From a virus: a DNA stretch of 24,170 bases. Shown piece by piece: positions 1,913 through 22,882 of this stretch. The stretch covers positions 1 through 24,170 of IMG/VR virus record IMGVR_UViG_3300010885_068257; one strand, given 5' to 3'. The position numbers and the translations under genes were made by a program. The notes under the pieces are model-generated. The model was given only the letters and a program-made list of their open reading frames with translations. It was not told where the DNA came from and did not search any database. Position 1 is the first letter of the stretch. Every line of letters starts with the position of its first letter.

Positions 1913-1920
1913 ATTTGATA
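1913..1920 (+). promoter_or_regulatory. ATTTGATA box before the virion gene block
   Basis: The same octamer as before phoH (472-479) lies 9 bases ahead of the ATG at 1930, and a third copy (10774-10781) precedes the gene at 10829. A phage promoter element is possible. The motif is AT-rich and also occurs inside a coding region (8754-8761), so support is weak. Confidence 0.28.
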
Positions 1921-1929
1921 TGTGGAAAT

Positions 1930-5300: not shown

Positions 5301-5320
5301 CATGGGCTTAGGAGAAAAAA

Positions 5321-8300
5321 ATGTCTAAATCTAAGTACGGAAATCTTTCTTCAATATCAATGGTCGGGTCTAATAAAGCAGACTTGATAAAATATCCTGT
5401 TGCGACCTCTTTTGCTATTTCAAAAGGAAAAGACAACGATCGATTAGAAGGAGGCTTGACGCAGTCAACAGTTTCTTCTTTTGAAATTTCTACAGGAATA
5501 ACAAATAACAGTCCCGAGATATTAGCTATTTCAAATTTCATTCCAGCATATGATGATAATGGTCGTTTAAATAAAGTAGGACAAGTTCTTCAAGCGAAGC
5601 AGGATAGTTTGCTAATATCTGCAGAAGCTTCAATTACCTCAATTTTAAATTCAAACATTTCTTCAGATTTATCTACAGCCGCGAGCGAAAACAGCTTAGA
5701 TTTGAAATTATTTTGTGATTCTTTTGGAGAAAATATTGATGATCTTTTGATAAGGTTTTCAAGAATAAAAAAGAAGTTTGATTGTAGGTCTCCCTTAGAT
5801 CAAAAAGATTTGATGTTAATTGGAGCTTTACAAGTTTATGTCAGCAACGCTTTATCAAAAAATAAAGTTATAGTCGACGTATCTCCTTCTTCTATTCAGG
5901 AAATTTTGTTTGATTCTACAGACAATACGACGGGATGGACTCCAACAAAAACGTGGATTCAAGTCTGTTTAGAAATGAAAGAAGCTTTTAGAAATGGTTT
6001 ACCAGGAGCTTTATTAACCCATGGAGCAATTCCATCTGCTATACCAAATGATCAAGCTTACTCAAGCCCTTACAATATAGTTTCTCCTAGGTCTGCAGCA
6101 CTAAGAAAATTTTCTTTTAATGATAGACATATATTAGTGCCAAGATTTCTTGATATTACTGGGTTGGTGTCTCAAAAAAATGAAAGCATCTTTCAGATAA
6201 TGAAAGCTGTGTTTAATTCAAAAGGTGTTTTGACAAATGTTTTTAACACGCAAGTTTTTGGAGAAACAGACAGCATCGAAGAATCTATCGCAAGACTTAG
6301 CCACTTAATTTGCAAAGAGTACGTTTTTTCTACAAAGATGAAACAGACGATAGTAGAAGATTATGGATATTCTATAAACACTTCAGGGACAGGAAACTCA
6401 AAGATTTGGGATAGCTTTTTTGGTCAAGTTGGTTCTGATATAACGGAAATTTTTTCAAATCCGCCAGGTGGCGGAAAATCCTTAGTTAGCCTTTCTCAAT
6501 TTATAGAAAAAGATAACACAGAAGTTTTGACGTTTGAAGACAGCTACATAAAAGACAATATTGGTACAAAAAGACCAAATGCAGTTATAACACCTGGAAC
6601 ATTTTATTATGTAGAAAGTTCGCTAAACTCTGATTCAAATAATTTTGATGTTTCTAGGTTATCCTCTTATATTCAAAGATTAAAGTCTTCTGCTGCAATG
6701 CTGAATTCATTAAGAGATGATTTAGCTTTTCAAGTTGATGTTGAACCGTATAGAAAACCTACTCAAAAATCTCATGGAGTAGGAGGATCGAATAGCGCAA
6801 ATTCTACTGACCTTGAAGATATTTTGTCAAACCCAATTTTGCTTTTAAGAAGTATAGAGCAAAAAGTGTTAAACGGGTCAGGTCTTCTTTGTAGAGATCC
6901 TGGCCCTAAAACTTGGTCAAATGAAGGAGAGTATGAAGACATAAGCGCAATTTTAATTTCAACTGCAATAAATGATGCAGAACTTATGTCTCTTCTTTTC
7001 ATATTTGTCGTTGGATTGATATCTGCAAATAAATCTAAATTTGGTGCTTCGGAAATTCAAGGGGCCCGCCCAGACTTTCAATACAGGTCAGACCTTGCGT
7101 TGAAAATAGTTGACAGGTTAAAGTCAATTGTTTCCTTCAATAGTCAAGAAAATGGAAAGTATCTTTTTTATGCTAGAGATATTCAAGGAAGCATAGAAGG
7201 AGGAATTGAAAACGGTGTTAAAATTTTAGAAAATTTAGCGAATTTTTTAGAGGGTCTAAGCGATAAATTAGACTTTTTAGAGACTTCTTCTTCAAGCAAT
7301 TTTGAAAAGTTTTTTATTTCTTCTCAAAGCTCGACATTTAAAATAGGCGATATTCAGCAACAAACAGACAAAAGGTCATTATATTCAGGAACGCAAAAAA
7401 CGATTTATCTTTCGTCAGTTTTTATGCTTTGTTGTTTGCTCGTCCATTCTTCAAATCCAGAAAGATTTGTCAATCATTACGCAGGAAATCAAACATTTGG
7501 AGATGTGTTTGAAATAAAAGAAGTATACGATCCTATCATGGTTCGTGATGCGACTGAAGATAAGTCAAGAAGTTCATCGTCAGTACGTAGTAGCGAAGGA
7601 ATCGTGTCGGCTCAAAAAGTAGATCAGCAGATTTCTAGAAAAAATCTTTCGATACTAAAATATGATGCTTTTTCAGTCAAGATTGAAAACCTACTTTCAG
7701 ATTACGATAGGACTTTGTTAAAAAAAATAAACAGAATTTACGGATTTCTATTTTCTTTACAAAGAGAGATGGAGACCTTGATTGGTTTATTAAATCCTGG
7801 AATTGGAAAATACTCTAAATTTTTGTCAAATGTTAACAGCGTAATAAATGAGCCAAGTCTTACTAGACTTTTAATGTCAGAAGAGCAATTATTACTTGTA
7901 AGAAGTAAGCTTACAGACATCTCAATAAGATCTTCAAATTCTTATTCATCTCCAGTTAAAGACTCTATTCCTTATTTCTTAAATTTGAGAAATCAATCAG
8001 GCATAGATAAGTTTCTTCCATTAGAAGATATTCACCTTGTCTCTTGGAATCTTTTGTTAAAAGACTTTCTAAAGACAAGTAATTTTGGATTGTCCGAATC
8101 TTCTTCTTACAATAAAAGAATAATTTCTGTTGGAATACCTCAGAAGCTTCAAAGAAGCTTACAGTTAAATGCCAGTAATTTATCTGCGTCAACAAGAAAA
8201 AACAAATTGGTGAATGTTAAAATCTATAGAGTCAATGGCTTAAAACCGGAATTAATTTACTCTCCAATAAGTTTTCTTTTTGATCTTACAAGATTTTCAA

Positions 8301-8929
8301 CTAGAGTTTTAAAGAATTTTATAGACAGCGGATTTTCAGTATTTGAGAGTTCAAGCTTTGACCTTAATAAAATCCCTACGTTAAAATCAAATCTGAGTTC
8401 AGAGATGTCTCCGTCCAACAGCTTTTCGATTATTAATAACGGGATTGAGTCTTTAAGCGATTATAGCTTTTTATCAAATGAAGACAAGAAAAAATTAATA
8501 GAAAATCACTCAATAAGTTTTTTAATGGAAGAATACTTGAGATACCTCTGTGGTGTTTCTTTTGATGAAAATCGTTATACAAACTTTAACGTAATCAAAA
8601 AAACAATAGACGCAGAATTTGAAAAATTTGTTAAATCCACGACAGGAACTGAAACAGCGACTTTTAGTAATCCTTCCATGCAGTCTTTTTTTGTTGAAGA
8701 CAGCTTTCTTTTAGATACGCAAGCCTTGAAAAAATCATTAATATCACCAAGAAAATTTGATAGAGTGTTTCATTTATTGGTAGACCCAGACGATTTTATA
8801 GTTGATACAACGCTGACCGAAAGTTTTGCACTAACAAAGTATCAAAATGACAGCAGCAGCGGTTCTTCTTTAGATGAAATAACTTTTGACAAATACTACG
8901 CAGCAATAGAGACATACAGCGATAAATGA
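5321..8929 (+). CDS. very large putative virion protein of unknown fold
   Basis: At 1202 residues this is the longest gene here. The start ATG 5321 follows a clear AGGAG (5310-5314). No catalytic motif or known domain was recognised. The protein is rich in Ser, Asn, Leu and Lys, with many predicted helical stretches. Two hydrophobic runs stand out, around residues 552-570 (SLLFIFVVGLISA) and 696-710 (SSVFMLCCLLV), each long enough to be a membrane helix or a buried core helix. Size and position between FN3-bearing genes suggest a baseplate wedge, tail-associated or internal virion protein. T4 gp7 (1032 residues) is comparable in size, but no sequence match is claimed. Expression appears coupled with its neighbours, with 20- and 12-base gaps. 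Confidence 0.6.
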   Translation: MSKSKYGNLSSISMVGSNKADLIKYPVATSFAISKGKDNDRLEGGLTQSTVSSFEISTGITNNSPEILAISNFIPAYDDNGRLNKVGQVLQAKQDSLLISAEASITSILNSNISSDLSTAASENSLDLKLFCDSFGENIDDLLIRFSRIKKKFDCRSPLDQKDLMLIGALQVYVSNALSKNKVIVDVSPSSIQEILFDSTDNTTGWTPTKTWIQVCLEMKEAFRNGLPGALLTHGAIPSAIPNDQAYSSPYNIVSPRSAALRKFSFNDRHILVPRFLDITGLVSQKNESIFQIMKAVFNSKGVLTNVFNTQVFGETDSIEESIARLSHLICKEYVFSTKMKQTIVEDYGYSINTSGTGNSKIWDSFFGQVGSDITEIFSNPPGGGKSLVSLSQFIEKDNTEVLTFEDSYIKDNIGTKRPNAVITPGTFYYVESSLNSDSNNFDVSRLSSYIQRLKSSAAMLNSLRDDLAFQVDVEPYRKPTQKSHGVGGSNSANSTDLEDILSNPILLLRSIEQKVLNGSGLLCRDPGPKTWSNEGEYEDISAILISTAINDAELMSLLFIFVVGLISANKSKFGASEIQGARPDFQYRSDLALKIVDRLKSIVSFNSQENGKYLFYARDIQGSIEGGIENGVKILENLANFLEGLSDKLDFLETSSSSNFEKFFISSQSSTFKIGDIQQQTDKRSLYSGTQKTIYLSSVFMLCCLLVHSSNPERFVNHYAGNQTFGDVFEIKEVYDPIMVRDATEDKSRSSSSVRSSEGIVSAQKVDQQISRKNLSILKYDAFSVKIENLLSDYDRTLLKKINRIYGFLFSLQREMETLIGLLNPGIGKYSKFLSNVNSVINEPSLTRLLMSEEQLLLVRSKLTDISIRSSNSYSSPVKDSIPYFLNLRNQSGIDKFLPLEDIHLVSWNLLLKDFLKTSNFGLSESSSYNKRIISVGIPQKLQRSLQLNASNLSASTRKNKLVNVKIYRVNGLKPELIYSPISFLFDLTRFSTRVLKNFIDSGFSVFESSSFDLNKIPTLKSNLSSEMSPSNSFSIINNGIESLSDYSFLSNEDKKKLIENHSISFLMEEYLRYLCGVSFDENRYTNFNVIKKTIDAEFEKFVKSTTGTETATFSNPSMQSFFVEDSFLLDTQALKKSLISPRKFDRVFHLLVDPDDFIVDTTLTESFALTKYQNDSSSGSSLDEITFDKYYAAIETYSDK

Positions 8930-8941
8930 AAGTAAGTTGAC

Positions 8942-10753
8942 ATGACATTATCTAGACCTTCAACTCCTGCGCTTTCTATTCATATTCCTCGACCTGGTAA
9001 TTTTCAATCTGAGTTTGTCTACAATTACTACGTTTATGATGAAGCAACAAATGCGTCTGCAGGAGTCCCAGAATATCTTAAAAAGAAATCTTCAGAACAA
9101 ATTAACACTGAAACTTCTAACTTCATGCTGAGACAACCAAGATACATAAAGTTGACGTGGAATTGTTCTAATTCATCAAAAGCTTTGCAGGCAGATTCGT
9201 CGAAATTTCCGATAAAAGATAATCTGGAAAAAGTAGCGTCTGAAGACGGTTTCGTTTCCTCCAGATTTACCTCACACACTTTTTCTGATTTTGAAAAAAT
9301 TGAGAATGCGTATAAAGATATCAATACGTCTTCGGATGGTAAAACCAGTCAAGCAACGATTATTGACAATTATGTTTCAAGTCTTTTAAAAAGATATTCA
9401 GAAACAGGCGATGAATCTGATTTAAGTCTATTGAGAAATCAAATCACAAAAGCTGTAGAAAACATAGAGATAATTGCAGATAGACCGTCTTCTACGTTAG
9501 GTATTAACTTTTATAATGCTGATGGAAAGCAGATAATGAACAGCGGGTTTGATAGGCTAATATCAAACGTCCCTGTAATGAATGTTAGTATTAACTCTTT
9601 GGTTCTTTCAGATGTTTTTGTTTCTGCGTCATTGTCTCAATCTGATATAGATCAAATTAATAGTGAATATCAAAAGAGCAAAAACGAATCTTCAAGAAAT
9701 GAAGATGCAATAGTGAAGCCCATTTATGTTGGAGAAAAAACTAGAGATCCTGAATCATTTTTATGCAAAGTTTCTCTTGTCGGTTATGTCATAGACAAGC
9801 ACGAAATGACAGATGAAGGTTTCATAAAAACAAAAACGATAACTATCGAAAGTTCTTTTATTAATAGTTTCATTGATTTAGAAGTAAAATATGGATCGAC
9901 TTACTACTACTCTATAAGAGCAATTGCAAAAATAGAAATTCCTGGATACGATGAAGAAAATGCAGAAATTAGAGACTTAATTTACTACGTCAGTTCAGGA
10001 CAAATATCAAATTCTACATTATGCAAAGAAGTTGTGCCGCCTCCGCCTCCTGTTGACACAAATTTTGTTTGGGACTATAAGACAAAAAAAATAAAAATAG
10101 TCTGGGGAATGCCGGTAAATTCTCAAAGAGATATAAAACAATTTCAAATTTTTAGAAGAAGCTCTATAAGAGAACCATTCGAACTTATAAGACAAAAATG
10201 TTTTGATTATTCAACAAAAAAGTACTTGACCGGTGAATTAATAGATGGAAACAGAGTTGAAATGACAAAAGAAGAAGAATCTTTTGTCGATTATGAAAAG
10301 TTTCCATCTATGTCTTATGTGGATGATGATTTTTTTGTAGACATAGAAATGTTATCATCTTCAAAATACATCTATACAGTTGCTACAGTCGATGCTCATG
10401 GGATGATATCAAACTATGGAGCTCAATTTGAGGTAACATTTGACTTTTTTAAGAACAAAATTGTAAAAAAATTAATCAGCTCATCCGGAGCTCCGCGTCA
10501 GTATCCAAACATGCAACTTGAATTAGACACGTTCAAAGATGTGATAAAGACTTCTGGAGAATTTTCTAGCAGAATGAAATTATATTTCATGCCAGAGTAT
10601 TTTAAGATCAAGTATAACAATAGTCGTGAACAAACGTTGGTGTCAACAAATCAACAAAACTCTTTTTACAAAATTCAATTCATCAATCTTCAAAACCAAA
10701 AGAGCGATTCTATTAAGGTTAAAATTGATGATCCTTATGGATTAGTAAAATAG
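8942..10753 (+). CDS. fibronectin-III-like virion protein with polyproline hinge
   Basis: A 603-residue protein starting at ATG 8942, 12 bases after the previous stop and without a strong Shine-Dalgarno sequence. A region near 290-350 resembles the end of an FN3-like domain (VKYGSTYYYSIRAIAKIE). It is followed by a five-proline run (about residues 365-369), a likely rigid hinge. A clearer FN3-like domain at about 378-505 begins KKIKIVWGMP, contains IKQFQIFRRS and ends YIYTVATVDAHG. Its domain make-up recalls the protein at 2958-5300, so the two may be partners or distant paralogues. A tail, baseplate or fibre part is inferred from domain type and context. The stop codon lies inside an inverted repeat (10720-10770). 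Confidence 0.65.
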   Translation: MTLSRPSTPALSIHIPRPGNFQSEFVYNYYVYDEATNASAGVPEYLKKKSSEQINTETSNFMLRQPRYIKLTWNCSNSSKALQADSSKFPIKDNLEKVASEDGFVSSRFTSHTFSDFEKIENAYKDINTSSDGKTSQATIIDNYVSSLLKRYSETGDESDLSLLRNQITKAVENIEIIADRPSSTLGINFYNADGKQIMNSGFDRLISNVPVMNVSINSLVLSDVFVSASLSQSDIDQINSEYQKSKNESSRNEDAIVKPIYVGEKTRDPESFLCKVSLVGYVIDKHEMTDEGFIKTKTITIESSFINSFIDLEVKYGSTYYYSIRAIAKIEIPGYDEENAEIRDLIYYVSSGQISNSTLCKEVVPPPPPVDTNFVWDYKTKKIKIVWGMPVNSQRDIKQFQIFRRSSIREPFELIRQKCFDYSTKKYLTGELIDGNRVEMTKEEESFVDYEKFPSMSYVDDDFFVDIEMLSSSKYIYTVATVDAHGMISNYGAQFEVTFDFFKNKIVKKLISSSGAPRQYPNMQLELDTFKDVIKTSGEFSSRMKLYFMPEYFKIKYNNSREQTLVSTNQQNSFYKIQFINLQNQKSDSIKVKIDDPYGLVK

Positions 10754-10770
10754 ATGTAGCATCAATTTTA
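10720..10770 (+). terminator. inverted repeat spanning the stop codon, possible 3'-end structure
   Basis: TAAAATTGATG (10720-10730) is the exact reverse complement of CATCAATTTTA (10760-10770). The 29-base loop contains the TAG stop at 10751-10753. The 11-bp stem is AT-rich, but the right arm ends in a T run. It could end transcription or protect the mRNA 3' end before the promoter-like box at 10774. Confidence 0.35.
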
Positions 10771-10773
10771 GGA

Positions 10774-10828
10774 ATTTGATATCTATTGTAGATTAGCAGT
10801 TAAAAATCTCGTTGGAGGACTTTAGAAA
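10774..10828 (+). promoter_or_regulatory. possible promoter and leader for the gene at 10829
   Basis: This part of the 75-base gap holds an ATTTGATA box (10774-10781), running on as ATTTGATATCTATT, and a strong ribosome site (TTGGAGGA, 10813-10819 region) 8-10 bases before the ATG. Promoter function is inferred from the motif shared with 472-479 and 1913-1920 and from the preceding inverted repeat. Confidence 0.35.
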
Positions 10829-11542
10829 ATGGGTTGGTTAGATAATTCAACAAACAATATCATACTCGATGCGGTGCTAACAGACTATGGACGTCAAGCA
10901 CTAGCAAGAAACGATGGATCTTTTAGAATCTCAAGATTTTCTCTAGGAGATGATGAAGTTGACTACAGCATCATTACGAAGTATGGTAGAACAGTTGGAA
11001 GGGAAAAGATAGAGAAAAACACTCCTGTATTTGAGGCATTTACCAATCAAAATTTAGGACTCAAATACAGAATGGTTAGCGTACCAAGACCGCTTCTTTA
11101 TCTTCCTGAAGTTAGTTTGTCAGGAGCGCAGGCTGTTTCTTTGACGACTACATCATCTCAAGGTGGATCAACTTCCAACGTGCAAAAAGTTATCATAACG
11201 CAAGTTCCTCGTGGTGGAGAATCTTCAATAGACCCAGATTTGTTGGAGACTAATTTTGATGTTTACGTTCCTGATTTATTCTTGAGTCTCGATGGGATAA
11301 CGCCAGTTGGTTCTCCAGATGTCAATAAGATAGCGATGTATACAATATCTACAGTAAGAGGACAAGGAAATCCAACTCTTACTTTAGATTTAAGAGTAAA
11401 GCCCATAACAAAAGCAACGTTTGATGTATACGGTAGAGCATCAACTTCTGGAGGTGACAGAACAATCATAAACACTTCTGTTAAAGTTGTTGGAAAAAGT
11501 TCTGGCGCAGTTAAAGAAATACCTGTTACAATAACAAAGTGA
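10829..11542 (+). CDS. putative virion structural protein, LTxxGR N-terminal module
   Basis: A 237-residue protein with an excellent ribosome site (GGAGGA) before ATG 10829. It begins MGWLDNSTNNIILDAVLTDY and continues GRQALA. This N-terminal pattern also opens the protein at 1930-2958 (DA-x-LT-x2-GR-x2-LA, then an SF-rich strand and an acidic VxY). I recall this N terminus from other uncharacterised virion proteins of environmental T4-like phages, but cannot check. The remainder (about 85-237) is Thr/Ser/Val-rich and looks all-beta, with an STVRGQGNPTLTLDLRVKP region. No catalytic motif is seen. It is 12 bases from the next gene. A tail or baseplate role is inferred. Confidence 0.68.
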   Translation: MGWLDNSTNNIILDAVLTDYGRQALARNDGSFRISRFSLGDDEVDYSIITKYGRTVGREKIEKNTPVFEAFTNQNLGLKYRMVSVPRPLLYLPEVSLSGAQAVSLTTTSSQGGSTSNVQKVIITQVPRGGESSIDPDLLETNFDVYVPDLFLSLDGITPVGSPDVNKIAMYTISTVRGQGNPTLTLDLRVKPITKATFDVYGRASTSGGDRTIINTSVKVVGKSSGAVKEIPVTITK

Positions 11543-11554
11543 TAAGGAACAAAA

Positions 11555-12811
11555 ATGGCGACATTTCATGAATTAGCTCCTGGTGACATCACAACAGCGA
11601 GATCTTTTTTAAATCAGCTGATCGATGTACTTCAAGAAGACATAAGCGGCTCTACATCTCGTAGAAAGTATCAGCATTTCGTAACTGGAGGAGTGGGCCC
11701 TGGAATTACTTCTTCTCTTTTTCAAACTGTCTATGATCAAGACTTTACTCTTCAGACAGCAAACCCTGTTTTTGATGTAACCGTAGGATTGGCACCGCCA
11801 GACGTACTTTCAAATGGAATTGCTGATCAAACAAAGACTGGCTACGACGCAAGTCAAAAGTACCTCTTTCCAAGCAGCTCTTTAATGATGCGCGAAAAGA
11901 CAGACGTATATCGTCAGTTTGCGCAGACTCTTTTGGGCGATGGAGGGTCTAAATTTACTGTTCCTCTTGAGGGAAGCTCTACAACAACGATTGATGCAGC
12001 GATGTTCATTGCTTTCAAGAGATTGTTCTCTAGAGACCAGATCAAAAGAGAAACATTCGCGATGCGTTTCTATCAAACGGCTTCATATGTCTCTAAGGTT
12101 GCGGGTAGCGATATGCCTCCCGCTGCAGATGGAAACGGCGTTCAAAATCTAAGGTCGACATCTCTTTCAGGATCGGCAATTTTTACTGACCTCGGTTCTG
12201 CAACCCAGAAGTTCTCTACGGTCGGCGGTCAGTACGGAATAATCGTAGATTCTGCAAACAACACTCGACAAGTAGGACTGATGTTCTATGACGCGGGTGT
12301 CGCTGTTTTTGATCTTTCTCAGATCACTTCAGGAAGTCAATTCGTTTCTGGAACAATCGACGCTATGAGCCCGATTGGAACAACAGTACTAGGTGGAGCT
12401 TATACTGAGACAGCAAAGAAGGCAAAGCTTATTCCTGACTTTATTACCTCTGCCAGCATAGACAACATTGTTGACCATCTATGCAGCGCAAGATTCCAGT
12501 CAGGATCATTGACTGCTATAACTTTCCAAAACGTGACAAATATTAACTCATCGTTAATATTCTGCAGAGCTCCTGCAGATGAGTTTAATTATTCTTCAAA
12601 CCCGACGTACGTCGATAAGTCAGACGATAAGAGGGGAAGAATAGTCGTCATAGATCCAGGACAAGAAGATAAACAAGACACTTTCACTTATGTCACAGCT
12701 GTCGGGTTGTATGATTCTTCTGGAAATCTATTAGCTGTTGCAAAGCTTAGCAGACCTGTCGAAAAGAGTCCTGAAAGAGATTTGACTTTCAGAGTTCGAT
12801 TGGACTTCTAA
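11555..12811 (+). CDS. putative virion structural protein with shared C-terminal LDF module
   Basis: A 418-residue protein with ATG 11555 after an AAGGA ribosome site. Composition and GC (higher than the genes at 2958-10753) suggest an abundant structural protein. The last ~90 residues contain EFNYSSNPTYVD, FTYVTAVGLYDSSGNLLAVA, LSRPVEKSPE and the terminal RVRLDF. The protein at 12838-15318 ends in the same order of motifs (SSNPSY, FVYISNINLHDENLNVVAKA, QPIMKRE, KIALDF). This shared terminal module is probably a beta-rich docking or oligomerisation domain. The rest (about 1-320) shows no known domain. The gene fits a tail or baseplate assembly set with its neighbours; the exact identity is unknown. 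Confidence 0.7.
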   Translation: MATFHELAPGDITTARSFLNQLIDVLQEDISGSTSRRKYQHFVTGGVGPGITSSLFQTVYDQDFTLQTANPVFDVTVGLAPPDVLSNGIADQTKTGYDASQKYLFPSSSLMMREKTDVYRQFAQTLLGDGGSKFTVPLEGSSTTTIDAAMFIAFKRLFSRDQIKRETFAMRFYQTASYVSKVAGSDMPPAADGNGVQNLRSTSLSGSAIFTDLGSATQKFSTVGGQYGIIVDSANNTRQVGLMFYDAGVAVFDLSQITSGSQFVSGTIDAMSPIGTTVLGGAYTETAKKAKLIPDFITSASIDNIVDHLCSARFQSGSLTAITFQNVTNINSSLIFCRAPADEFNYSSNPTYVDKSDDKRGRIVVIDPGQEDKQDTFTYVTAVGLYDSSGNLLAVAKLSRPVEKSPERDLTFRVRLDF

Positions 12812-12837
12812 TATCAACTTAAATCAAGAGAAATGAA

Positions 12838-15318
12838 ATGGCAATACTGCCTGTTACAGCAGACGATATCGAGTTTTTTACGACTTTGGTAAACCCAAGT
12901 CGTTCTTACTCTTCAAGTTCTTCTGGAGTGACAGGCTCTTTAAGCTTGTTTGCTAGATCTTCTCACATTGAAAAAGAAGTTCGGCCTTTAACAAGCTTTA
13001 ATGATTCTTTTGTCAACGACCAAGACATAGAAACTTCTAGGCTTGCTGTTTCTTCAAAAGCAAAAAAGACTCCACAAGGTGGTTCTTTTTTCCAAAGTTT
13101 AGATGATTATTTGCAAGACATCAATAAGCAAACAATATCTGAAAAGAAGCAGAAAAAATTAGACATCATAAGATTCACACCCGGAGTTTTCTTTACATCC
13201 AACACCGTTAGAAAATTAAATATCAAAGACATGCTTATGACGTACTATCGTACGTCATATCCTACTGCAAATTGGGCGTATACGAACTACCATAGTTTGA
13301 ATTTCTTTTCATCTCAAACTGTACCGACATCGTCTGTTCTTTTATATCCAAACATCGACAATCCCGACATACCTCAACATGATGGTTATGTTAGTGGAAC
13401 TTATTCTCTTTCAGGCGGGTTTAGTTTTGACTTTCATATAAATCCAAGGTACAAAAATGATGGTGGAAATTCTTCTTCATTTAAAGCTGGAACGATATTT
13501 CACGTGTCTTCTAGTTATTCGTTGTCGTTGATAACAGGATCTAATAAGGACGAAAACGGACTACCGGCTTCTTTTAGACTGCAACTTCAATTAAGCCACA
13601 GCGCAGACATTCCTCCTTCCCAAGCGAAGAATGGTTCATATCCAAATGATCTTGTTTTTTTATCTGACGATAATGTGTTGGACTGGAATAACTGGCGTAG
13701 GGTAGTTGTTAGATGGGGAACAAATTTAGTAAATGACGGTACAGGGTCATTTAACATAGACGGCGTAGAAAAGGGAACTTTCGTTGTCCCGTCTGGGACG
13801 ATTATGCCAAAGCTGTTTTCAACGAAGTCAGATCCAGACATTCTTTGCGTTGGAAATTATTACGAAGGTTTGAACTCTGCGCTTGACAGCACTTTCTTGT
13901 TCTTTTCTGACGTCACTTCAAAAAGAGATGGAGTCGATCAGTTGGTCGATAGCGCTGGGTCGTTTGATGAACCAATGAATTACGCATTTAATCACCCTTT
14001 AAACGCAGAGGTTCACGACCTTACAATTCGTAGATACTACATGACGGACCAAGAAATTCTCCAGACTTCTGGTAGTGGAATCTCTAGCATAGATCAATCA
14101 AAAATTGCCTTTCATGTCCCGCCGCTATTTGTAGAAAAAACGAATATTCGTAGGTCAGCAAATGGATTTGGAGGAATTCTTCAAACTCCGTTTTTTGAAA
14201 TAGACGGTTCTACTGATGATCCATTCAACGTTGCCATGGCCTTTGGAGTAAATGGTCATTACATCAATCTTGAAAATTTTGTGAAAGATTTTGCAAATGA
14301 ATCTTTCCCACGTTTACATCACTTGTCTGGATCAACGTTGGATTACACAACGTCCGCAGAACCTGCGAATGATTTTTTATACAAAGATCCATTTGTTAGA
14401 CGTAGAAATTTAACAATAATGCCGTGCGACGATGGAACGTTTGCACCAAACTACAATTTGCTTTCTGATCAAACAGGAAATAAATTCGTAGACTCTTTTG
14501 GAAGAACTGATTACAGTCTTATCAGTCTTGATAATCTTTTAAACGCGTCATCATTGCTGTTCGGAGCGACGCATGACACGGAAAATGACCCGACATTCTC
14601 AGAACAGCAGATAGGGTTTACGCCCGAAAACCCTGGAGTTCAACCGGGCCCAGCAGTTTTGAACAAAAAGAAGAAAATTGAATCAACAATAAGCGTAGAT
14701 GAAGCCTCTTATGATGTGGGAGTTCAAAGAGGCGTTCCATTGACGATCTTTCAGAGGACGAAAGATCCTTCTTCAAACCAGGTTACAATTTTTGATATAA
14801 GCAATCTTTATTATGGCTCAAGAATTTTACCAGGATCTTTTCAAATCGTAGATTCAAATCTTACTGGGTCTGGTGGAAAAATTTCTGTTACACTAAAAGA
14901 TGATGGCTTTGGTAACATCTATAGGTCTGATTCAATAACAAGTAATTGCACATGGAATTCGGTCGGAAATATTTTTTATAATGAAGGTATCGTCTTAATA
15001 AAGAGTCCTCATCTGCAATTTTTTGGAAAAGAACAATACGAAGTATCTTTTAAAGGTGAACAAAAGCTATACACTCAAAAATATGAGATATTAACTCCAA
15101 GCGGATTGATCAATTCATCATCAAATCCTTCTTACGCTCGTTGCCAAACATCGATAAGCGCGTCTGCTGATCCTCTTGATCAAGAAAAGTTCGTCTATAT
15201 TTCAAACATCAACTTGCACGATGAAAACTTGAATGTCGTAGCCAAGGCTGTTCTCGCGCAACCTATCATGAAACGCGAAAGCGAAAAGATCCTTTTTAAG
15301 ATAGCTTTAGATTTTTAA
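12838..15318 (+). CDS. large virion protein with LamG-like segment and shared C-terminal LDF module
   Basis: An 826-residue protein starting at ATG 12838 after a weak AAGAG site. Residues about 193-350 look like a concanavalin/LamG-type beta sandwich: strands at FSFDFHINP and FRLQLQLS, then WNNWRRVVVRWG, then a short-turn strand FNIDGVEKGTF. Such domains often bind glycans or hold fibre-like subunits together. The last ~90 residues share motifs with the preceding protein (SSNPSY, LHDENLNVVAKA, terminal ALDF). The N terminus is Ser-rich. Codons 133-140 hold a perfect 10-bp hairpin (13236-13259). A tail, baseplate or receptor-contact role is inferred. One base separates its stop from the next ATG. 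Confidence 0.7.
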   Translation: MAILPVTADDIEFFTTLVNPSRSYSSSSSGVTGSLSLFARSSHIEKEVRPLTSFNDSFVNDQDIETSRLAVSSKAKKTPQGGSFFQSLDDYLQDINKQTISEKKQKKLDIIRFTPGVFFTSNTVRKLNIKDMLMTYYRTSYPTANWAYTNYHSLNFFSSQTVPTSSVLLYPNIDNPDIPQHDGYVSGTYSLSGGFSFDFHINPRYKNDGGNSSSFKAGTIFHVSSSYSLSLITGSNKDENGLPASFRLQLQLSHSADIPPSQAKNGSYPNDLVFLSDDNVLDWNNWRRVVVRWGTNLVNDGTGSFNIDGVEKGTFVVPSGTIMPKLFSTKSDPDILCVGNYYEGLNSALDSTFLFFSDVTSKRDGVDQLVDSAGSFDEPMNYAFNHPLNAEVHDLTIRRYYMTDQEILQTSGSGISSIDQSKIAFHVPPLFVEKTNIRRSANGFGGILQTPFFEIDGSTDDPFNVAMAFGVNGHYINLENFVKDFANESFPRLHHLSGSTLDYTTSAEPANDFLYKDPFVRRRNLTIMPCDDGTFAPNYNLLSDQTGNKFVDSFGRTDYSLISLDNLLNASSLLFGATHDTENDPTFSEQQIGFTPENPGVQPGPAVLNKKKKIESTISVDEASYDVGVQRGVPLTIFQRTKDPSSNQVTIFDISNLYYGSRILPGSFQIVDSNLTGSGGKISVTLKDDGFGNIYRSDSITSNCTWNSVGNIFYNEGIVLIKSPHLQFFGKEQYEVSFKGEQKLYTQKYEILTPSGLINSSSNPSYARCQTSISASADPLDQEKFVYISNINLHDENLNVVAKAVLAQPIMKRESEKILFKIALDF
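13236..13259 (+). repeat. perfect 10-bp stem-loop inside a virion gene
   Basis: TATGACGTAC (13236-13245), loop TATC (13246-13249), then GTACGTCATA (13250-13259) form an exact hairpin within coding DNA. It may act as an RNA structure or a protein site, or be chance; no associated signal was recognised. Confidence 0.4.
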
Positions 15319-15319
15319 A

Positions 15320-15727
15320 ATGCCTCCCAAAAAGCCTCGTAAGCGAAAGAGAAAGCACAAGGGTCATTACCATAGAGGAACCCACATTTCTCCGATTGCT
15401 GGAGAATGCAAGTACCGTTCTGGATGGGAACAGAAATACATGGTCTATCTAGATGAGAATCCTGATGTGACATCGTGGTCCTATGAGAAGTTGATCATTG
15501 AGTATGTTTCAAATCAGAAGACCAAGAAGATTCGCAAGTACTATCCAGATTTTCAGGTTGAATATAAGGACGGTAGTAAAGTCATCATAGAGATCAAACC
15601 ATCTAGAAAACTAAACCAGATGACAGTGATTAAGAAGGTCAGGGCCGCCAAAGAGTGGTGCACGATCCACGGAGTGACCTACAAAGTGCTTACAGAAATA
15701 GAGCTAAAAGATATGGGTCTACTTTAA
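15320..15727 (+). CDS. gp4-like head-completion nuclease (PD-(D/E)XK)
   Basis: A 135-residue protein resembling the T4 gp4 head-completion family, whose fold is of the TnsA/PD-(D/E)XK nuclease type. After a very basic tail (residues 3-14, Lys/Arg-rich) comes YRSGWEQKYMVYLD (32-45) with candidate catalytic Glu37. It is followed by WSYEKLIIEY, then YYPDF with Asp77, and VIIEIKP with Glu91 and Lys93: the E...D...ExK order of this nuclease fold. In T4, gp4 acts late in head completion, before tails join filled heads. The ATG lies one base after the previous stop, with no Shine-Dalgarno sequence, suggesting reinitiation. From about here Lys is often AAG, and GC rises toward the primase. Confidence 0.85.
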   Translation: MPPKKPRKRKRKHKGHYHRGTHISPIAGECKYRSGWEQKYMVYLDENPDVTSWSYEKLIIEYVSNQKTKKIRKYYPDFQVEYKDGSKVIIEIKPSRKLNQMTVIKKVRAAKEWCTIHGVTYKVLTEIELKDMGLL

Positions 15728-16362: not shown

Positions 16363-17340
16363 GTGGTCCACTCCCTCACGGACAAACTGAAGTTTTACGA
16401 ATCGATCTTTGGTCGAGGTCGAATCTCTGGCAACGGTCTCAACTTTGATGTCAGGTGTCCTATCTGTGCCCCAACAGATCCGACCAAAAAGAAGTTGGCT
16501 ATCCGTACAACAGACGATGCGAATCACTGTTGGACATGTGGATGGAAGGCCCGGAGCCTTGCTCCTTTATTACGGAAATATGGGACGCAGGAACACCTGA
16601 ACGCATATCGAGAATTAACTGGACAAGGTGGCAGGTCGGACCTGGTTACCGCCGAGGTCGAGAAAGTCCAGAAGATAGAGCTACCAAAGGATTTCCGACT
16701 GTTGACCTTAGCTAGCGAGATGGACCCAGATGTCAAGGCTGCATGGAGGTACGTTTATTCCAGAGGATTGACTGACCGTGATGCCTGGTACTTCAAGTTT
16801 GGAGTCTCTGATGAACAGAGGTGGAAGAGGAGGGTCATCATGCCGTCCTTTGATTCCAATGGTGAATTGAATTACTTTGTGGCTAGAGCGGTGGATAAAG
16901 ACAAGAAGCCGAAGTATGACAATCCTGATGTTGACAAGAATCCGATAGTCTTCAATGAGATCAACCTGGATTGGAACAAGCGGCTGGTTCTCTGCGAGGG
17001 ACCGTTCGATATGGTCAAGTGTCCAGAGAATTCAACTGCATTGTTGGGGTCAGACCTTGATGAGCGGCATGAGGTATTTAACAAAATTCTTCTACATGGA
17101 ACTCCTGTTGCCCTGGCCCTAGACGGTGACATGTGGCAGAAGAAAACACCACGGATCGTGAAGAAGTTACAGGAATACAACGTCGATGTCGTGGTGGTGG
17201 ATGTGAGGCCCTGGGGAGATCCCGGAAGCATGTCCAAGGCCGAGTTCGAAAAAGCTCTTTTTGAGGCTAAACCTTTATTCTGGGAAGACAGGTTCTTGAC
17301 CAAGCTGGATAAATTTGTTTCATCTAATTTTAAGTTTTAA
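16363..17340 (+). CDS. DNA primase with zinc finger and TOPRIM domain, gp61-like
   Basis: A 325-residue protein with the layout of T4 gp61 primase (342 residues). An N-terminal zinc finger has Cys32, Cys35, Cys56 and Cys59 (RCPIC...HCWTCGW). The TOPRIM catalytic core has LCEGPFD with Glu212 and ALDGD with Asp254 and Asp256. There is no helicase domain, so a separate helicase, outside the window, would be needed. It would make RNA primers for lagging-strand synthesis. The start is GTG 16363; no upstream in-frame start exists because the frame upstream offers no start codon before the resolvase stop, and no Shine-Dalgarno sequence is seen. GC is clearly higher than in the virion genes (for example 30 of 60 bases at 16681-16740). 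Confidence 0.9.
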   Translation: MVHSLTDKLKFYESIFGRGRISGNGLNFDVRCPICAPTDPTKKKLAIRTTDDANHCWTCGWKARSLAPLLRKYGTQEHLNAYRELTGQGGRSDLVTAEVEKVQKIELPKDFRLLTLASEMDPDVKAAWRYVYSRGLTDRDAWYFKFGVSDEQRWKRRVIMPSFDSNGELNYFVARAVDKDKKPKYDNPDVDKNPIVFNEINLDWNKRLVLCEGPFDMVKCPENSTALLGSDLDERHEVFNKILLHGTPVALALDGDMWQKKTPRIVKKLQEYNVDVVVVDVRPWGDPGSMSKAEFEKALFEAKPLFWEDRFLTKLDKFVSSNFKF

Positions 17341-17377: not shown

Positions 17378-17387
17378 ATTGATCAAT
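17378..17387. repeat. 10-bp palindrome overlapping a start codon
   Basis: ATTGATCAAT is a perfect palindrome covering the first two bases of the ATG of the Mre11-Rad50 fusion gene. It could be an operator-like site, but short AT-rich palindromes arise by chance. Confidence 0.25.
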
Positions 17388-20300
17388 GGTACGAATTGCT
17401 CATACGGCCGATATTCACTGGCGAGGTTTAAGTCGACACGATGAATATCGTGAAGTTTTCACAACTTTTCTTAAAGACTGCAAGAAGAACAATGTCGATC
17501 ATATCTTCATTGGTGGCGATCTGTTTCACACTAAAACTACTGGTATTTCTCCTGAATACATCGAGCAAATGACTTGGTGGCTAGATGCCATGGCAGAGGT
17601 TGCTCATGTTCACCTCACTCTTGGCAACCATGATGGTAACCTGGTAAACCTGTCCAGGCAAGATGCCGTGTCTCCGATCGTATCAGCCTTAAATAACCCC
17701 AGAGTTCATCTCTACAAGAAGAGCGGGGTGTATGAATTTCATCCTGGGTTCAATTGGTGCGTCTATTCTCTCTTTGATGAAGAGGGGTGGAAAGATGTGA
17801 AGCCGGAGCCTGGTAAGATCAACATCGCATGTTACCATGGTCCAGTTCATGGATCAGTGACAGAGACGGGTTGGGAACTTGATGACGCTCAAATTAAGGT
17901 AGAGTTTTTTGAAAGCTATCCGTATGCATTTTTGGGAGATATTCACCAGATGCAATTTCTAGGTTATAGAGATACGGTAGAAGGTGAAAATAAACCTTGG
18001 ATTGCTTATCCAGGAACTCCAATCCAGCAGAACTACGCAGAAGAGGTGGACCGTGGATACCTTTTCTGGACTATCACTAGTGATATTGATTGGGATGTTA
18101 AGTTTAAGAAACTTCCTAACCCAAAGCCATACGTGACTTTAATGTGGTCCGGTTCTTTAGAAGAACTTTTAAAATCTTCAAAGAAGTATCCGGAAGGGAC
18201 TAGATTCAGAGTCAGGTCTTCTGAAGATCTTGGGCAAAAAGATTTTAAAGTTATCAGCGAGGCTTTAAAAAGTTCAAAGCTTGCGACCGAAGTCACTTTT
18301 AAATCAGACTTTATTGTTGATCGGTCGGTGGTTAAAGCTGGAACAGTGACTATTGGAAAGTCGGACCTAAGAAGTTCAGATGTATTGTTAAAACTGATAA
18401 AGGATTATTACAGCTCAACTCAAATATCAAAAGACTCTTGGACCTCTATTTCAGAGCAAGTAAAATCTTACTTGTCGATTGCTGCTGCAAATGAAGAGAC
18501 TACCCGCAATTCAAAATGGTCATTGCGTTATCTCGAGTTTGATAATATGTTTGCTTATGGTGAGGGTAACGCCATTAATTTTGATAAATTAAGCGGAATT
18601 ATCGGCGTATTTGGACCTAATAGAATTGGTAAATCTTCTATTGTTGGTACTTTGATGTATTCTTTATTTAATACCACAGATCGTGGACCAATGAAGAATA
18701 TCCACGTTTGTAACGTTAGAAAGCCATACTGCTCGTCCAAAGTGATTATCAACCACAACGGTATAGACTATGTGATCGAACGCCAGACTACAAAAAGTGA
18801 AAATAAGAAAGGCATTATTAACGCCGCAACAGCTCTTAATGTGTTTAAAATTCGAGATGACGGAGAAGCCGATGATCTTGCTGGTGAGCAAAGGACAGAC
18901 ACAGAAAAAGTTATTAGGTCTTTGATCGGAAGCCAAGAAGATTTTACTATGACGTCCCTTGCTGCGCAAGGAGAGACAAATCAATTCATATCTCAAGGGT
19001 CTACGAAGCGTAGGGCAATCTTATCAAGATTTCTTGATCTTGATATCTTCGATAGGATGCATGAAATTGCTAATAGGGAGTTGAGTGGATTAAAAGCTCA
19101 ACTTAAGAATTTTCCTGAGAGAGATTGGAACGAAGTAATTCAGCTTGGAAACAAAGCTATCGAAAAAGTTGATGATGAGATTAAACAATTAAATCAAAAA
19201 ATAAAAGAAAAACAGTTTAAGCTTTCTCAGTTCCAGACAGAACTTTCAAAGCACAAGGATGTTACCCCAGTTACCAAGTCTCAAGTTGAATCATTCGCTA
19301 AAATGGTAGAATTGTTAGAACAACGCTGCAAGTCTTGTACCCAAACAATAGAGAAGTTAGGACAAGAAATAAAAGAATGTGAAAAGAAGATCGAGACAAT
19401 AAAAGAGGTAAAGTCAGATAACAACCTCACAGATTTAAAAGCCAGACATTCTGCTTATTTGAGTCTAGAGTCTTCTATTACATCGTTAAAGCATTCTTAT
19501 GAAAAAGAGTCGACTTTACTGAAGAACCAGCAAAAATCTTTAAAGATTCTTGACGAAGTTCCATGTGGAGACGATTATCCAAGCTGCAAATTTATTAAAG
19601 ATGCTCATATTAACAAAGGTAAGACATCAGAACAAGAAGAAAAAGTTAGTTTCGTGCAGCAAAAGCTTTTAGAAGCCTCAAAAGCTCTTGACGAACTCGA
19701 AAAAGAAAATATTCTTGCTCGACTTGAAAAGCTTGAAAGATTAATCGATCTTGAGTCCAAGCTTCTTCTTGAAATGTCTAGAAAAGAGACAGAGCTTGCA
19801 AAGGCAAAGTCTACATGCGATTCTCAAGTTATCGATCTAAAATCTTCAAAAGAGCGTCTAGTTCATCTTGAAGAGGCTTTAAAAAATGAAGAAAATGCTG
19901 AAGCTGTTTCTATTAAGACAGAAATAGAAAATATTTCTCGTGACATAGATGATCTTACTTCTCTTAAAATTTCAGCAGCCACAAATAAAGGAAAGCTTAC
20001 TGCTACCTTAGAAAAGACAGGCGAAGAAAAAGAATCGCGTGATAATCTTCTTGAAAAAATGAAAGTTCATGAGATTGTCGCTTCTGCTTTTTCTAAGAAG
20101 GGAATACCTCTCATCATCACAAAGTCTCAATTGCCTGTTATTAATTCAGAAATATCTAAGATACTTCAAGGTATCGTTGATTTTACAATTGAATTAGAGA
20201 ATGATGAAAGCACTGATTCTTCTGAAATCTATATCAATTATGGAGACTCTAGAAGGGTAATTGAACTGTGCTCTGGGATGGAAAAGACGATCGCTTCTCT

Positions 20301-20553
20301 TGCTGTTAGAGTTGCAATGATTAACACGACGACCCTGCCAAAATCAGATTTTTTTATTGTAGATGAAGGATTTGGTACATTAGACGATGCAGGAGTTGAA
20401 GCTTGTAATAGACTTCTAACATCTTTAAAGAAATATTTTAGATCTATTATTGTGATTACCCATGTTGATGGCGTCAAAGATATTGTAGACCATGTATTTG
20501 AGATCACAAAAAACGAGAAAGACTCAAAAGTTTTGTACGGAGTCGATGAATGA
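17386..20553 (+). CDS. fused Mre11/SbcD-Rad50/SbcC recombination nuclease (gp47-gp46 fusion)
   Basis: A single 1055-residue frame holds two proteins that are separate in T4. Residues 1-340 are the Mre11/gp47 metallophosphoesterase: Asp9 and His11 (TADIHW), Asp45 (GGDLFH), GNHD at 80-83, His151, GDIH at 184-187 and YPGTPIQQ at 208-215. Residues about 380-1055 are the Rad50/gp46 ATPase: Walker A GPNRIGKSS at 410-418, a coiled coil at about 580-895, signature CSGMEK at 962-967 and Walker B IVDEGFGTLDD around Asp993-Glu994. At the coil apex the hook is Cys727-x6-Cys734 instead of the usual CxxC; a CKSC lies earlier at 648-651. It would resect DNA ends for recombination-dependent replication. ATG 17386 has no Shine-Dalgarno sequence. 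GC falls partway through the nuclease domain. Confidence 0.94.
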   Translation: MVRIAHTADIHWRGLSRHDEYREVFTTFLKDCKKNNVDHIFIGGDLFHTKTTGISPEYIEQMTWWLDAMAEVAHVHLTLGNHDGNLVNLSRQDAVSPIVSALNNPRVHLYKKSGVYEFHPGFNWCVYSLFDEEGWKDVKPEPGKINIACYHGPVHGSVTETGWELDDAQIKVEFFESYPYAFLGDIHQMQFLGYRDTVEGENKPWIAYPGTPIQQNYAEEVDRGYLFWTITSDIDWDVKFKKLPNPKPYVTLMWSGSLEELLKSSKKYPEGTRFRVRSSEDLGQKDFKVISEALKSSKLATEVTFKSDFIVDRSVVKAGTVTIGKSDLRSSDVLLKLIKDYYSSTQISKDSWTSISEQVKSYLSIAAANEETTRNSKWSLRYLEFDNMFAYGEGNAINFDKLSGIIGVFGPNRIGKSSIVGTLMYSLFNTTDRGPMKNIHVCNVRKPYCSSKVIINHNGIDYVIERQTTKSENKKGIINAATALNVFKIRDDGEADDLAGEQRTDTEKVIRSLIGSQEDFTMTSLAAQGETNQFISQGSTKRRAILSRFLDLDIFDRMHEIANRELSGLKAQLKNFPERDWNEVIQLGNKAIEKVDDEIKQLNQKIKEKQFKLSQFQTELSKHKDVTPVTKSQVESFAKMVELLEQRCKSCTQTIEKLGQEIKECEKKIETIKEVKSDNNLTDLKARHSAYLSLESSITSLKHSYEKESTLLKNQQKSLKILDEVPCGDDYPSCKFIKDAHINKGKTSEQEEKVSFVQQKLLEASKALDELEKENILARLEKLERLIDLESKLLLEMSRKETELAKAKSTCDSQVIDLKSSKERLVHLEEALKNEENAEAVSIKTEIENISRDIDDLTSLKISAATNKGKLTATLEKTGEEKESRDNLLEKMKVHEIVASAFSKKGIPLIITKSQLPVINSEISKILQGIVDFTIELENDESTDSSEIYINYGDSRRVIELCSGMEKTIASLAVRVAMINTTTLPKSDFFIVDEGFGTLDDAGVEACNRLLTSLKKYFRSIIVITHVDGVKDIVDHVFEITKNEKDSKVLYGVDE

Positions 20554-20894: not shown

Positions 20895-21272
20895 ATGCCA
20901 AACATCGATTACAACGCTCTTGGCCAAGCTTTAGATACATCTTGGGGTCGTTCTTCTACTCCAAAAACATCTTCGTACTCGGTTAAATTTACTCTTGCCG
21001 GTGATGTATTAACAGCGTCATATCAAGCAGTTGTTAATTTTGCTACCGAAAAAGAGATGATTATTATGAAAAGACTTTATGAAGAAGAGTCCATCGAAAT
21101 TACCAGCGCTGTTCTAAAAAGTGTTAAGTCTGTCTACAAAGATATTTCTGGAAATTCCCTTTCAACAAAAGAAGCGTCTTCATCTACGTCGATTGAAATA
21201 ATAAATTTCAATATTCATAATCCAAAGAGAACTGCATACTTCCGTAGGAAGACAGCTTTTGAAATAGCTTGA
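20895..21272 (+). CDS. hypothetical protein upstream of the terminase
   Basis: A 125-residue protein with ATG 20895 and a good Shine-Dalgarno sequence. It begins MPNIDYNALGQALDTSWGR. A probable beta-rich N-terminal half (YSVKFTLAGDVLTASYQAVV) is followed by a helical segment with many Glu and Lys residues (EKEMIIMKRLYEEES), a Ser/Thr linker and a basic C terminus (NPKRTAYFRRKTAFEIA). Its stop overlaps the terminase ATG by one base, so translation is coupled. The position is that of a small terminase in T4 (gp16 before gp17), but it lacks the mostly helical, DNA-binding look of small terminases, so I do not assign it. A packaging- or head-related role is inferred from context only. Confidence 0.6.
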   Translation: MPNIDYNALGQALDTSWGRSSTPKTSSYSVKFTLAGDVLTASYQAVVNFATEKEMIIMKRLYEEESIEITSAVLKSVKSVYKDISGNSLSTKEASSSTSIEIINFNIHNPKRTAYFRRKTAFEIA

Positions 21273-22882
21273 TGAAACCTCTTACAAGAAGTGAACAGAT
21301 AAAGGAGATCATCCGATGCGGAAAGGATCCGATCTACTTTATGAAAAATTATGTGAGGATTCAGCACACGGTGCGTGGTCTTATACCGTTTGAAACTTAC
21401 GACTTTCAGGATGATTGTGTTAAACAGTTTGAAGAAAATCGCTTTAACATTGTTTTAAAGTCTCGTCAGTTAGGCTTATCAACAGTCACGGCTGCTTATG
21501 CAGTATGGTTTGCGATCTTTAAAAAAGATAAAAATATCCTTGTCATCGCTACAAAACTTTCTACGGCTATGAACTTCATCAAAAAAGTGAAGATTATGTT
21601 AGACGGTTTACCAAAGTGGCTGTTACTCACAAAGTTTGAACCTACAAAGCAATCAATATCTTTTGCAAATGGTTCACAAATAACTGCAATACCGACGTCA
21701 CCAGATGCTGGTCGTTCCGAGGCGCTGTCTCTTCTCATCGTCGACGAAGCTGCATTCATTAGAGACTTTGAAGACATCTGGACCGGTCTATATCCAACCT
21801 TATCTACTGGTGGTAAAGCTATTATCATTTCGACTCCGAATGGTGTTGGAGGACAATACTATCGACTCTGGATGGAAGGTGAGACAAAACAAAATGAATT
21901 CAACACTATCAAGCTTTCTTGGTGGGTTCATCCTGAGCATGATCAAGAATGGTTTGATAAAGAAACAAAGAATCTTCCAAAACGTAAAGTAGCCCAAGAG
22001 TTTCTTTGCGACTTTATTTCTTCAGGTGACACATTCTTACAGCCTTCAGAGCTTGAAAGTCTGAGAGAGTCTATTAGACCTCCTGTTGAAAAGTCGGGAC
22101 CACAAAATGCAGTGTGGACGTGGAGGCACCCAGTCGTCGGTAAAAAATACATTATTGCAGCTGACGTCGCTCGAGGAGACGCAGGAGATTTTTCTACTTT
22201 TCATATTGTCGATAATGAATCTTGTGAGGTCGTTGCAGAGTATATGGGAAAAACGCCACCAGACAAGCTCGCAGATCTTTTATTCGAATATGGAAAAAAA
22301 TACAACGAAGCTTTGATCTGCCCTGAACAAAATACATTCGGTTATTTTACTTGCGTAAAGCTTCGTGATGACGGGTATCCAAAGTTATATTATCAAGGAG
22401 CTACGGGTGATCCTTTTGAATATCATTCCATGGACCCGAACGCCGTCCCAGGATTTTCTACTCAAACAAAAACTAGGTCTCAAATATTAACAAAGTTAGA
22501 GGAATTAGCGCGTAATTCTGTTCTTAAAGTTTATTCTCAAAGGCTTTACGATCAGCTACAAGCCTTTGTTTGGAACGGTTCTCGTGCTCAAGCATCAAAA
22601 GATGCTCACGATGATCTTATCATGAGTCTTGCTATCGCGATGTGGCTTGTTGCTGGCGATTCAGGCGTAAATGAACAAGGAATGGCTCTTGCGTATGCAA
22701 TGTTAAAAGCTACGACAGTTCAAAGAAATGAAAGCATGCCAGGTGACGTAGCTTCAGTACGACCGGTCCCAAACGCGAACATGCAAAATTTTAACAATAG
22801 ACCACAGGACGTTTATAAACCAAAGGACCCTTCTCAAGTTCGACACACAGATGTGACAGATTTTTCTTGGCTGTATCGTTAA
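21272..22882 (+). CDS. terL: terminase large subunit (gp17-like packaging ATPase-nuclease)
   Basis: A 536-residue protein that pumps DNA into proheads and cuts the concatemer. The ATPase domain has a deviant Walker A KSRQLGLST (63-71), with lysine at the front where T4 has SRQLGKTT, Walker B LLIVDEA (154-160) and the coupling motif ISTPNG (186-191). The C-terminal nuclease domain has Asp298 (IAADVARGDAG), Glu352 (ICPEQN) and Asp447/Asp448 (DAHDDL), the acidic RNase-H-like triad. T4 gp17 is somewhat longer (610 residues). I start at ATG 21272, which overlaps the previous stop by one base; a TTG at 21269 would add only one residue. There is no Shine-Dalgarno sequence close by (AGGAAG is 22 bases away), so coupling probably drives translation. 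Confidence 0.95.
   Translation: MKPLTRSEQIKEIIRCGKDPIYFMKNYVRIQHTVRGLIPFETYDFQDDCVKQFEENRFNIVLKSRQLGLSTVTAAYAVWFAIFKKDKNILVIATKLSTAMNFIKKVKIMLDGLPKWLLLTKFEPTKQSISFANGSQITAIPTSPDAGRSEALSLLIVDEAAFIRDFEDIWTGLYPTLSTGGKAIIISTPNGVGGQYYRLWMEGETKQNEFNTIKLSWWVHPEHDQEWFDKETKNLPKRKVAQEFLCDFISSGDTFLQPSELESLRESIRPPVEKSGPQNAVWTWRHPVVGKKYIIAADVARGDAGDFSTFHIVDNESCEVVAEYMGKTPPDKLADLLFEYGKKYNEALICPEQNTFGYFTCVKLRDDGYPKLYYQGATGDPFEYHSMDPNAVPGFSTQTKTRSQILTKLEELARNSVLKVYSQRLYDQLQAFVWNGSRAQASKDAHDDLIMSLAIAMWLVAGDSGVNEQGMALAYAMLKATTVQRNESMPGDVASVRPVPNANMQNFNNRPQDVYKPKDPSQVRHTDVTDFSWLYR

Follow-up and report, generated by a model that had tools for sequence, protein, structure and literature searches.

The window, that is, the whole 24,170-nt stretch of viral DNA analysed here, carries a reading frame that runs without internal stop from an ATG at 17386 to a stop codon at 20551–20553 and encodes a 1055-residue protein in which a complete Mre11-type nuclease is followed by a complete Rad50-type ATPase (Table 1). 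The Pfam profile Metallophos matches residues 3–188 (1.8e-13), and the PHROG matches are SbcD-like for the N-terminal half (residues 1–350, 7.8e-27) and SbcC-like for the C-terminal half (residues 319–1051, 1.3e-58). A DNA primase-like gene lies just upstream, as it does next to the fusion in several relatives, and the terminase large subunit gene found downstream identifies the window as part of a tailed phage. Megablast of the window against phage records gave no match. Note that the small gene at 15320–15727, assigned to head closure by PHROGs, contains a TnsA-like endonuclease domain according to Pfam (3.7e-17); an endonuclease with this type of domain interrupts the gene of one of the relatives described below (L083). 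Upstream of it, at 1915–15318, lie seven consecutive frames of large or medium size (347, 780, 1202, 603, 237, 418 and 826 aa) for which PHROGs gave no match; nor did Pfam for the six scanned against it (all but the 1202-aa frame).

Table 1. Features of the Mre11–Rad50 locus (positions are those of the window)
Feature	Positions	Strand	Residues	Basis
DNA primase-like gene, just upstream of the fusion	16363–17340	+		
Mre11–Rad50 fusion gene	17386–20553	+	1055 plus stop	ORF, Pfam, PHROG
Mre11-type metallophosphoesterase (nuclease) domain	17386–18111	+	1–242	Pfam, alignment, AlphaFold2
Nuclease motif DIH	17410–17418	+		
Nuclease motif GDLFH	17515–17529	+		
Nuclease motif GNHD	17623–17634	+		
Nuclease motif H151	17836–17838	+	151	
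Nuclease motif GDIH (motif V)	17935–17946	+		
Hairpin after motif V, empty and uninterrupted in the window; place of the split in 24 relatives	17953–18009	+	190–208	
Mre11 cap region	18118–18360	+	245–325	inferred from element order in the AlphaFold2 model
Helix pair, Rad50-binding region of Mre11	18376–18489	+	331–368	AlphaFold2; comparison with PMC3175470
True linker (about 8 residues), before the first Rad50 strand at 377	18490–18513	+	369–376	AlphaFold2
Rad50 N-terminal ATPase lobe	18514–19041	+	377–552	alignment, solved Rad50, AlphaFold2
Walker A GPNRIGKSS	18613–18639	+		
Q-loop Q528	18967–18969	+	528	
Coiled-coil arms	19042–20088	+	553–724 and 735–901	AlphaFold2
C-x6-C hook-like turn (CGDDYPSC)	19564–19587	+	727–734	
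Rad50 C-terminal ATPase lobe	20089–20550	+		Pfam, alignment, solved Rad50, AlphaFold2
Signature SGME	20272–20283	+		
Walker B and D-loop	20350–20385	+		
H1026	20461–20463	+	1026	
Terminase large subunit, downstream of the fusion	21269–22882	+		

The sequence-only reading had placed all Mre11 and Rad50 motifs in one uninterrupted frame, and the ORF, Pfam, PHROG and alignment data agree on this point. Conservation was judged in an alignment of 50 fused relatives, where the nuclease motifs are invariant (D9/H11, G44-D45/H48, G80-N81-H82-D83, H151 and G184-D185-I186-H187), including the full set of two-metal phosphoesterase ligands (D9, H11, D45, N81, H151, D185 and H187). In the Rad50 part, the invariant positions comprise (i) N412 and G415-K416-S417-S418 of Walker A; (ii) Q528; (iii) the signature S963-G964-M965-E966; (iv) D993-E994 of Walker B, and D1000; H1026 is nearly invariant. 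Aligned to solved Rad50, the protein displays the full ABC ATPase set, i.e. Walker A and B, Q-loop, signature and His switch. The putative zinc hook is formed by C727-x6-C734, not by the CxxC typical of the Mre11/Rad50 (SbcCD) complex; about 92 of the 114 members of the family share C-x6-C where the coil turns, and distant ones have CxxC. Compared to an SbcCD-type complex, the hook departs from the standard and the remainder does not.

The AlphaFold2 model of the protein (50 sequences, mean pLDDT 81.8) consists, in order, of the nuclease domain, the cap, two helices (residues 331–341 and 349–368), a loop of about 8 residues, the Rad50 head, the coiled-coil arms and the second Rad50 lobe; its pTM is modest (0.53), so that the placement of the nuclease relative to the Rad50 head is not firm. 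The Rad50-binding helix pair of Mre11 is thus kept in the model and followed by a short linker (369–376). It had been suggested from the sequence that residues of about 340–380 form a linker and that the fusion might change the gating of the nuclease; most of this stretch is in fact predicted to be the usual Rad50-binding helices, which weakens the gating idea and leads us to expect each Mre11 to dock normally on Rad50. According to Yoshida et al. (PMC3175470), about 28 Å separate the C-terminus of Mre11 from the N-terminus of Rad50, a gap that 9–12 residues are enough to bridge. In Foldseek searches the closest solved structures were Mre11–Rad50, SbcCD and Smc heads, and the closest viral models those of Tupanvirus, Harvfovirus, Catovirus, Tenacibaculum phages and a Listeria phage; these viral proteins, which are similar in length to the window protein (similar or longer for those of giant viruses), align over nearly their full length, suggesting that they may be fusions too.

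Fusions of this kind were described in 2011 by Yoshida, Claverie and Ogata, in Mimivirus R555 and 12 other sequences; besides Mimivirus, they occur in a Bacillus phage, in plasmids, in bacteria and in eukaryotes (PMC3175470). In aquatic metagenomes, these authors found the viral fractions to be rich in R555-like genes, some of which lay beside SPO1-type primase genes, and they proposed (aquatic) phages as their source. The window protein resembles R555 in the order of the Mre11-like and Rad50-like parts on one chain, the preserved Rad50-binding region, the short linker, the aquatic viral source and the primase-like neighbour. As judged from the published description of R555, it also shares two substitutions that are conserved in its own family: a His for the third Asp in motif II (GDLFH) and, in GDIH, an Asp (Asp185) for the ligand His206 of P. 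furiosus Mre11. Unlike R555 (1351 aa), however, it is only 1055 aa long, with a shorter coiled coil, belongs to a tailed phage and not a giant virus, and has relatives that are split inside Mre11. T4 gp47/gp46 and bacterial SbcD/SbcC display the same domains, the same order and the same presumed role in end processing and recombination; the T4 proteins are encoded by separate genes, and T4 has GHFH in motif V, SEGE as signature and CPTC as hook where the window protein has GDIH, SGME and CX6C.

A survey of 114 distinct relatives having both Mre11 and Rad50 parts revealed 90 that are fused in one frame and 24 that are interrupted, while none of the 114 has a gene boundary at the usual Mre11/Rad50 junction. 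The sequence-only reading had hinted at an unusual fusion and had granted that, should most relatives carry it, it would be only a known variant. This is what we found: the fusion is the rule in this phage family and the window protein, taken alone, is a further case of a known kind. The 80 cellular loci examined, which are all distant from the family, include no frame with both parts. A fusion of this kind, again beside a primase-like gene, is present in a cultured phage, Microcystis phage Mel-JY01 (L082, 3953–7150), where it is annotated only as 'AAA domain containing protein'. The fusions adjoin primase and terminase genes of phages, and one is carried by a phage in culture; both points support what was proposed in 2011, namely that the R555-like genes so abundant in aquatic viromes are phage genes.

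All 24 interruptions fall in one and the same nuclease hairpin, between motif V (GDIHxxQ) and the YPGSxxQQN strand. Relatives split in this way are L141 (1393–5550), L182 (1479–5565), L083 (3944–8169), L094, L104, L015, L025, L034, L053, L081 and L163–L181. The two pieces bear conserved tails, an acidic one of about 20 residues at the end of the first piece and a basic strand of about 11 residues heading the second. More specifically, and with the distant L083 as the sole exception, the C-terminus of the first piece reads R-[ED]-V-E-[IL]-x-I-D-E-x-[DE]-L-x-K-Y-P-G-[AC]-[ET]-[VI]-[IV]-E or a near version of it and the second begins with a short basic strand, e.g. MGKKIKIKVKKPW. In many split relatives the stop and start codons overlap, as in translational coupling. 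Three of the 24 harbour an endonuclease-like gene between the pieces. Those of L141 and L182 are similar to Vsr/DUF559-type or related nucleases, with scores under the curated Pfam cut-offs, and that of L083 contains a TnsA-like domain, above the cut-off; the endonuclease frame of L141 extends over the beginning of the second piece. The spacer of L094 retains the beginning and the end of an endonuclease gene with the middle deleted and that of L104 only the end, from which we conclude that, in some lineages, a short spacer is a relic. L083, with its different endonuclease and only loosely similar tails, may represent an independent event. The presence of an endonuclease-like gene at some of the breaks, alongside relatives that are uninterrupted, matches the arrangement known as genes-in-pieces, for which free-standing homing endonucleases are responsible in Aeh1 nrdA/mobE, T4 topoisomerase/mobA and phage 25 gene 43 (PMC2988022). 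The tails do not appear to be a general element that also occurs elsewhere: of 80 genes related to the L141 endonuclease, only those at the same Mre11 site had them, with the patterns used, which divergent tails would escape.

Comparison of close pairs and gene trees indicates that the split moves horizontally. The split L094 and the fused L007 match at 86–88% on both sides of the site, where 271 nt replace 36 nt; likewise, the split L104 and the fused L017 match at 88–90%, with 236 nt replacing 85 nt. Between L141 and L094, which belong to different clades, the element and its immediate flanks are 85–100% identical and most of the gene 64–74%, the pattern expected of homing with co-conversion of the flanks. 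On gene trees of the shared part, the fused and split states need 10 changes, at least nine of which are forced by well-supported branches, a result that also holds under a mixture model with the first 50 residues after the junction omitted; the count does not discriminate gains from losses of the split. If the split were ancestral, then the uninterrupted genes, including that of the window, would be repeated re-fusions. The blindness of the count to direction, one deep group that is wholly split and the hairpin of the window clade, five residues longer than that of its sister group and conceivably scarred, all speak for this scenario, which we nevertheless hold to be unlikely: the distant relatives (the Mel-JY01 group, L400, L421 and L158) are fused and have short hairpins, L094 and L104 branch within groups of closely similar fused genes, and the element shared by L141 and L094 results from a recent lateral transfer. 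The split state has the appearance of a mobile genes-in-pieces element that brings its own tails for reassembly. As in Aeh1 nrdA/mobE and its kin, an endonuclease-like gene interrupts a replication or recombination gene at a critical site and the pieces are presumed to reassemble; unlike in these cases, the target is Mre11, the split recurs in many lineages, and the element brings along one and the same set of complementary tails, which outlast the endonuclease.

The tails and heads are under purifying selection, with pN/pS values of 0.33 and 0.31, respectively, against 0.23 for the flank, figures that are rough because synonymous sites are near saturation. A read-through model of L034 displays strand 188–200, helix 201–206, strand 211–218 and strand 221–235, with a mean pLDDT of 80–87 in blocks 191–230; this model holds five residues (stop and spacer) that are absent from the real proteins, and only five of its aligned sequences include the tails. 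The succession of strands and helix, together with the alternating E-I-E-I and K-I-K-I patterns, leads us to infer that the pieces pair via their tails as an extended β-sheet, which would probably let them reassemble into a nuclease. Could the split relatives yield a single chain after all, the insert being an intron or a split intein, or the stop being read through? Some endonuclease genes do reside in introns or inteins, and the spacers of five lineages are in register, which suggested read-through. This is quite improbable, however, as most other lineages overlap or are out of register and L053 has three in-frame stops; Rfam gave no intron match, and where the genes abut or overlap an intron would have no room; and intein halves would have to be far longer than the tails, which have about 20 and 11 residues. 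Reassembly of two separate chains is the reading we retain: we consider it likely that the active-site hairpin is the homing site of a mobile element bringing its own complementary tails, so that the nuclease self-assembles without splicing, and that this arrangement survives loss of the endonuclease.

Altogether, we estimate at roughly 85% the probability that the window protein is a one-chain Mre11–Rad50 DNA-end nuclease and that the hairpin is, in its family, the homing site of a splitting element. The protein would be a phage SbcCD, of the gp47/gp46 type, on a single chain. Two copies would dimerise; upon ATP binding the Rad50 heads would close on DNA, and upon ATP hydrolysis the attached Mre11 nuclease would trim or open DNA ends for recombination-dependent replication. 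As the Rad50-binding helices lie only about 8 residues before the Rad50 part, an ordinary two-plus-two machine should form, with each Mre11 docked in cis on its own Rad50. The mobile element would comprise an acidic β-α-β tail, an often-lost endonuclease gene, whose product presumably cleaves DNA, and a basic β-strand head; its insertion after motif V would turn one gene into two, the products probably rebuilding the nuclease by pairing of their tails as an extended β-sheet. The window carries the uninterrupted form, with the empty site at about 17953–18009.

Alternatively, the fused gene could also give a separate Rad50 by internal initiation and work as separate subunits. An in-frame start codon near the Rad50 start is present in 51 of the 55 fused genes checked, as expected by chance, but a Shine-Dalgarno-like motif precedes such a codon in only four of the 55, and in the window there is none; we find this highly improbable and favour the one-chain protein. 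Finally, although phage mre11 and rad50 genes often adjoin or overlap (e.g. in Vibrio phage D146), the view that two such genes were joined by an assembly error, which the sequence-only reading had envisaged at 18400–18540, or by a sequencing artefact is almost certainly wrong, because identical frames are present in two independent IMG/VR contigs from other metagenome samples (L002 and L003) and because there are 90 distinct fused relatives, the 79 complete frames among which all span 1046–1202 codons.

A recurrent, horizontally moving split in Mre11 with complementary tails would add a new form to the known genes-in-pieces (PMC2988022). We found no description of such splitting of Mre11/SbcD in the literature searched, a corpus without most subscription journals, and therefore claim no priority. 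How proteins split by homing endonucleases reassemble is an open question for the field (PMC2988022), and the split relatives offer two dozen natural experiments on it. Since the conserved tails are charge-complementary, reassembly is directly testable, and the tails might serve as compact, splice-free split-protein tags. If our proposal holds, an enzyme that resects DNA breaks is itself a homing target. Note that, counted from GDIH to QQN, the hairpin after motif V comprises 33 residues in the window clade and 28 in its sister group, a difference that may be either a scar left by an insertion since lost or normal variation in length.
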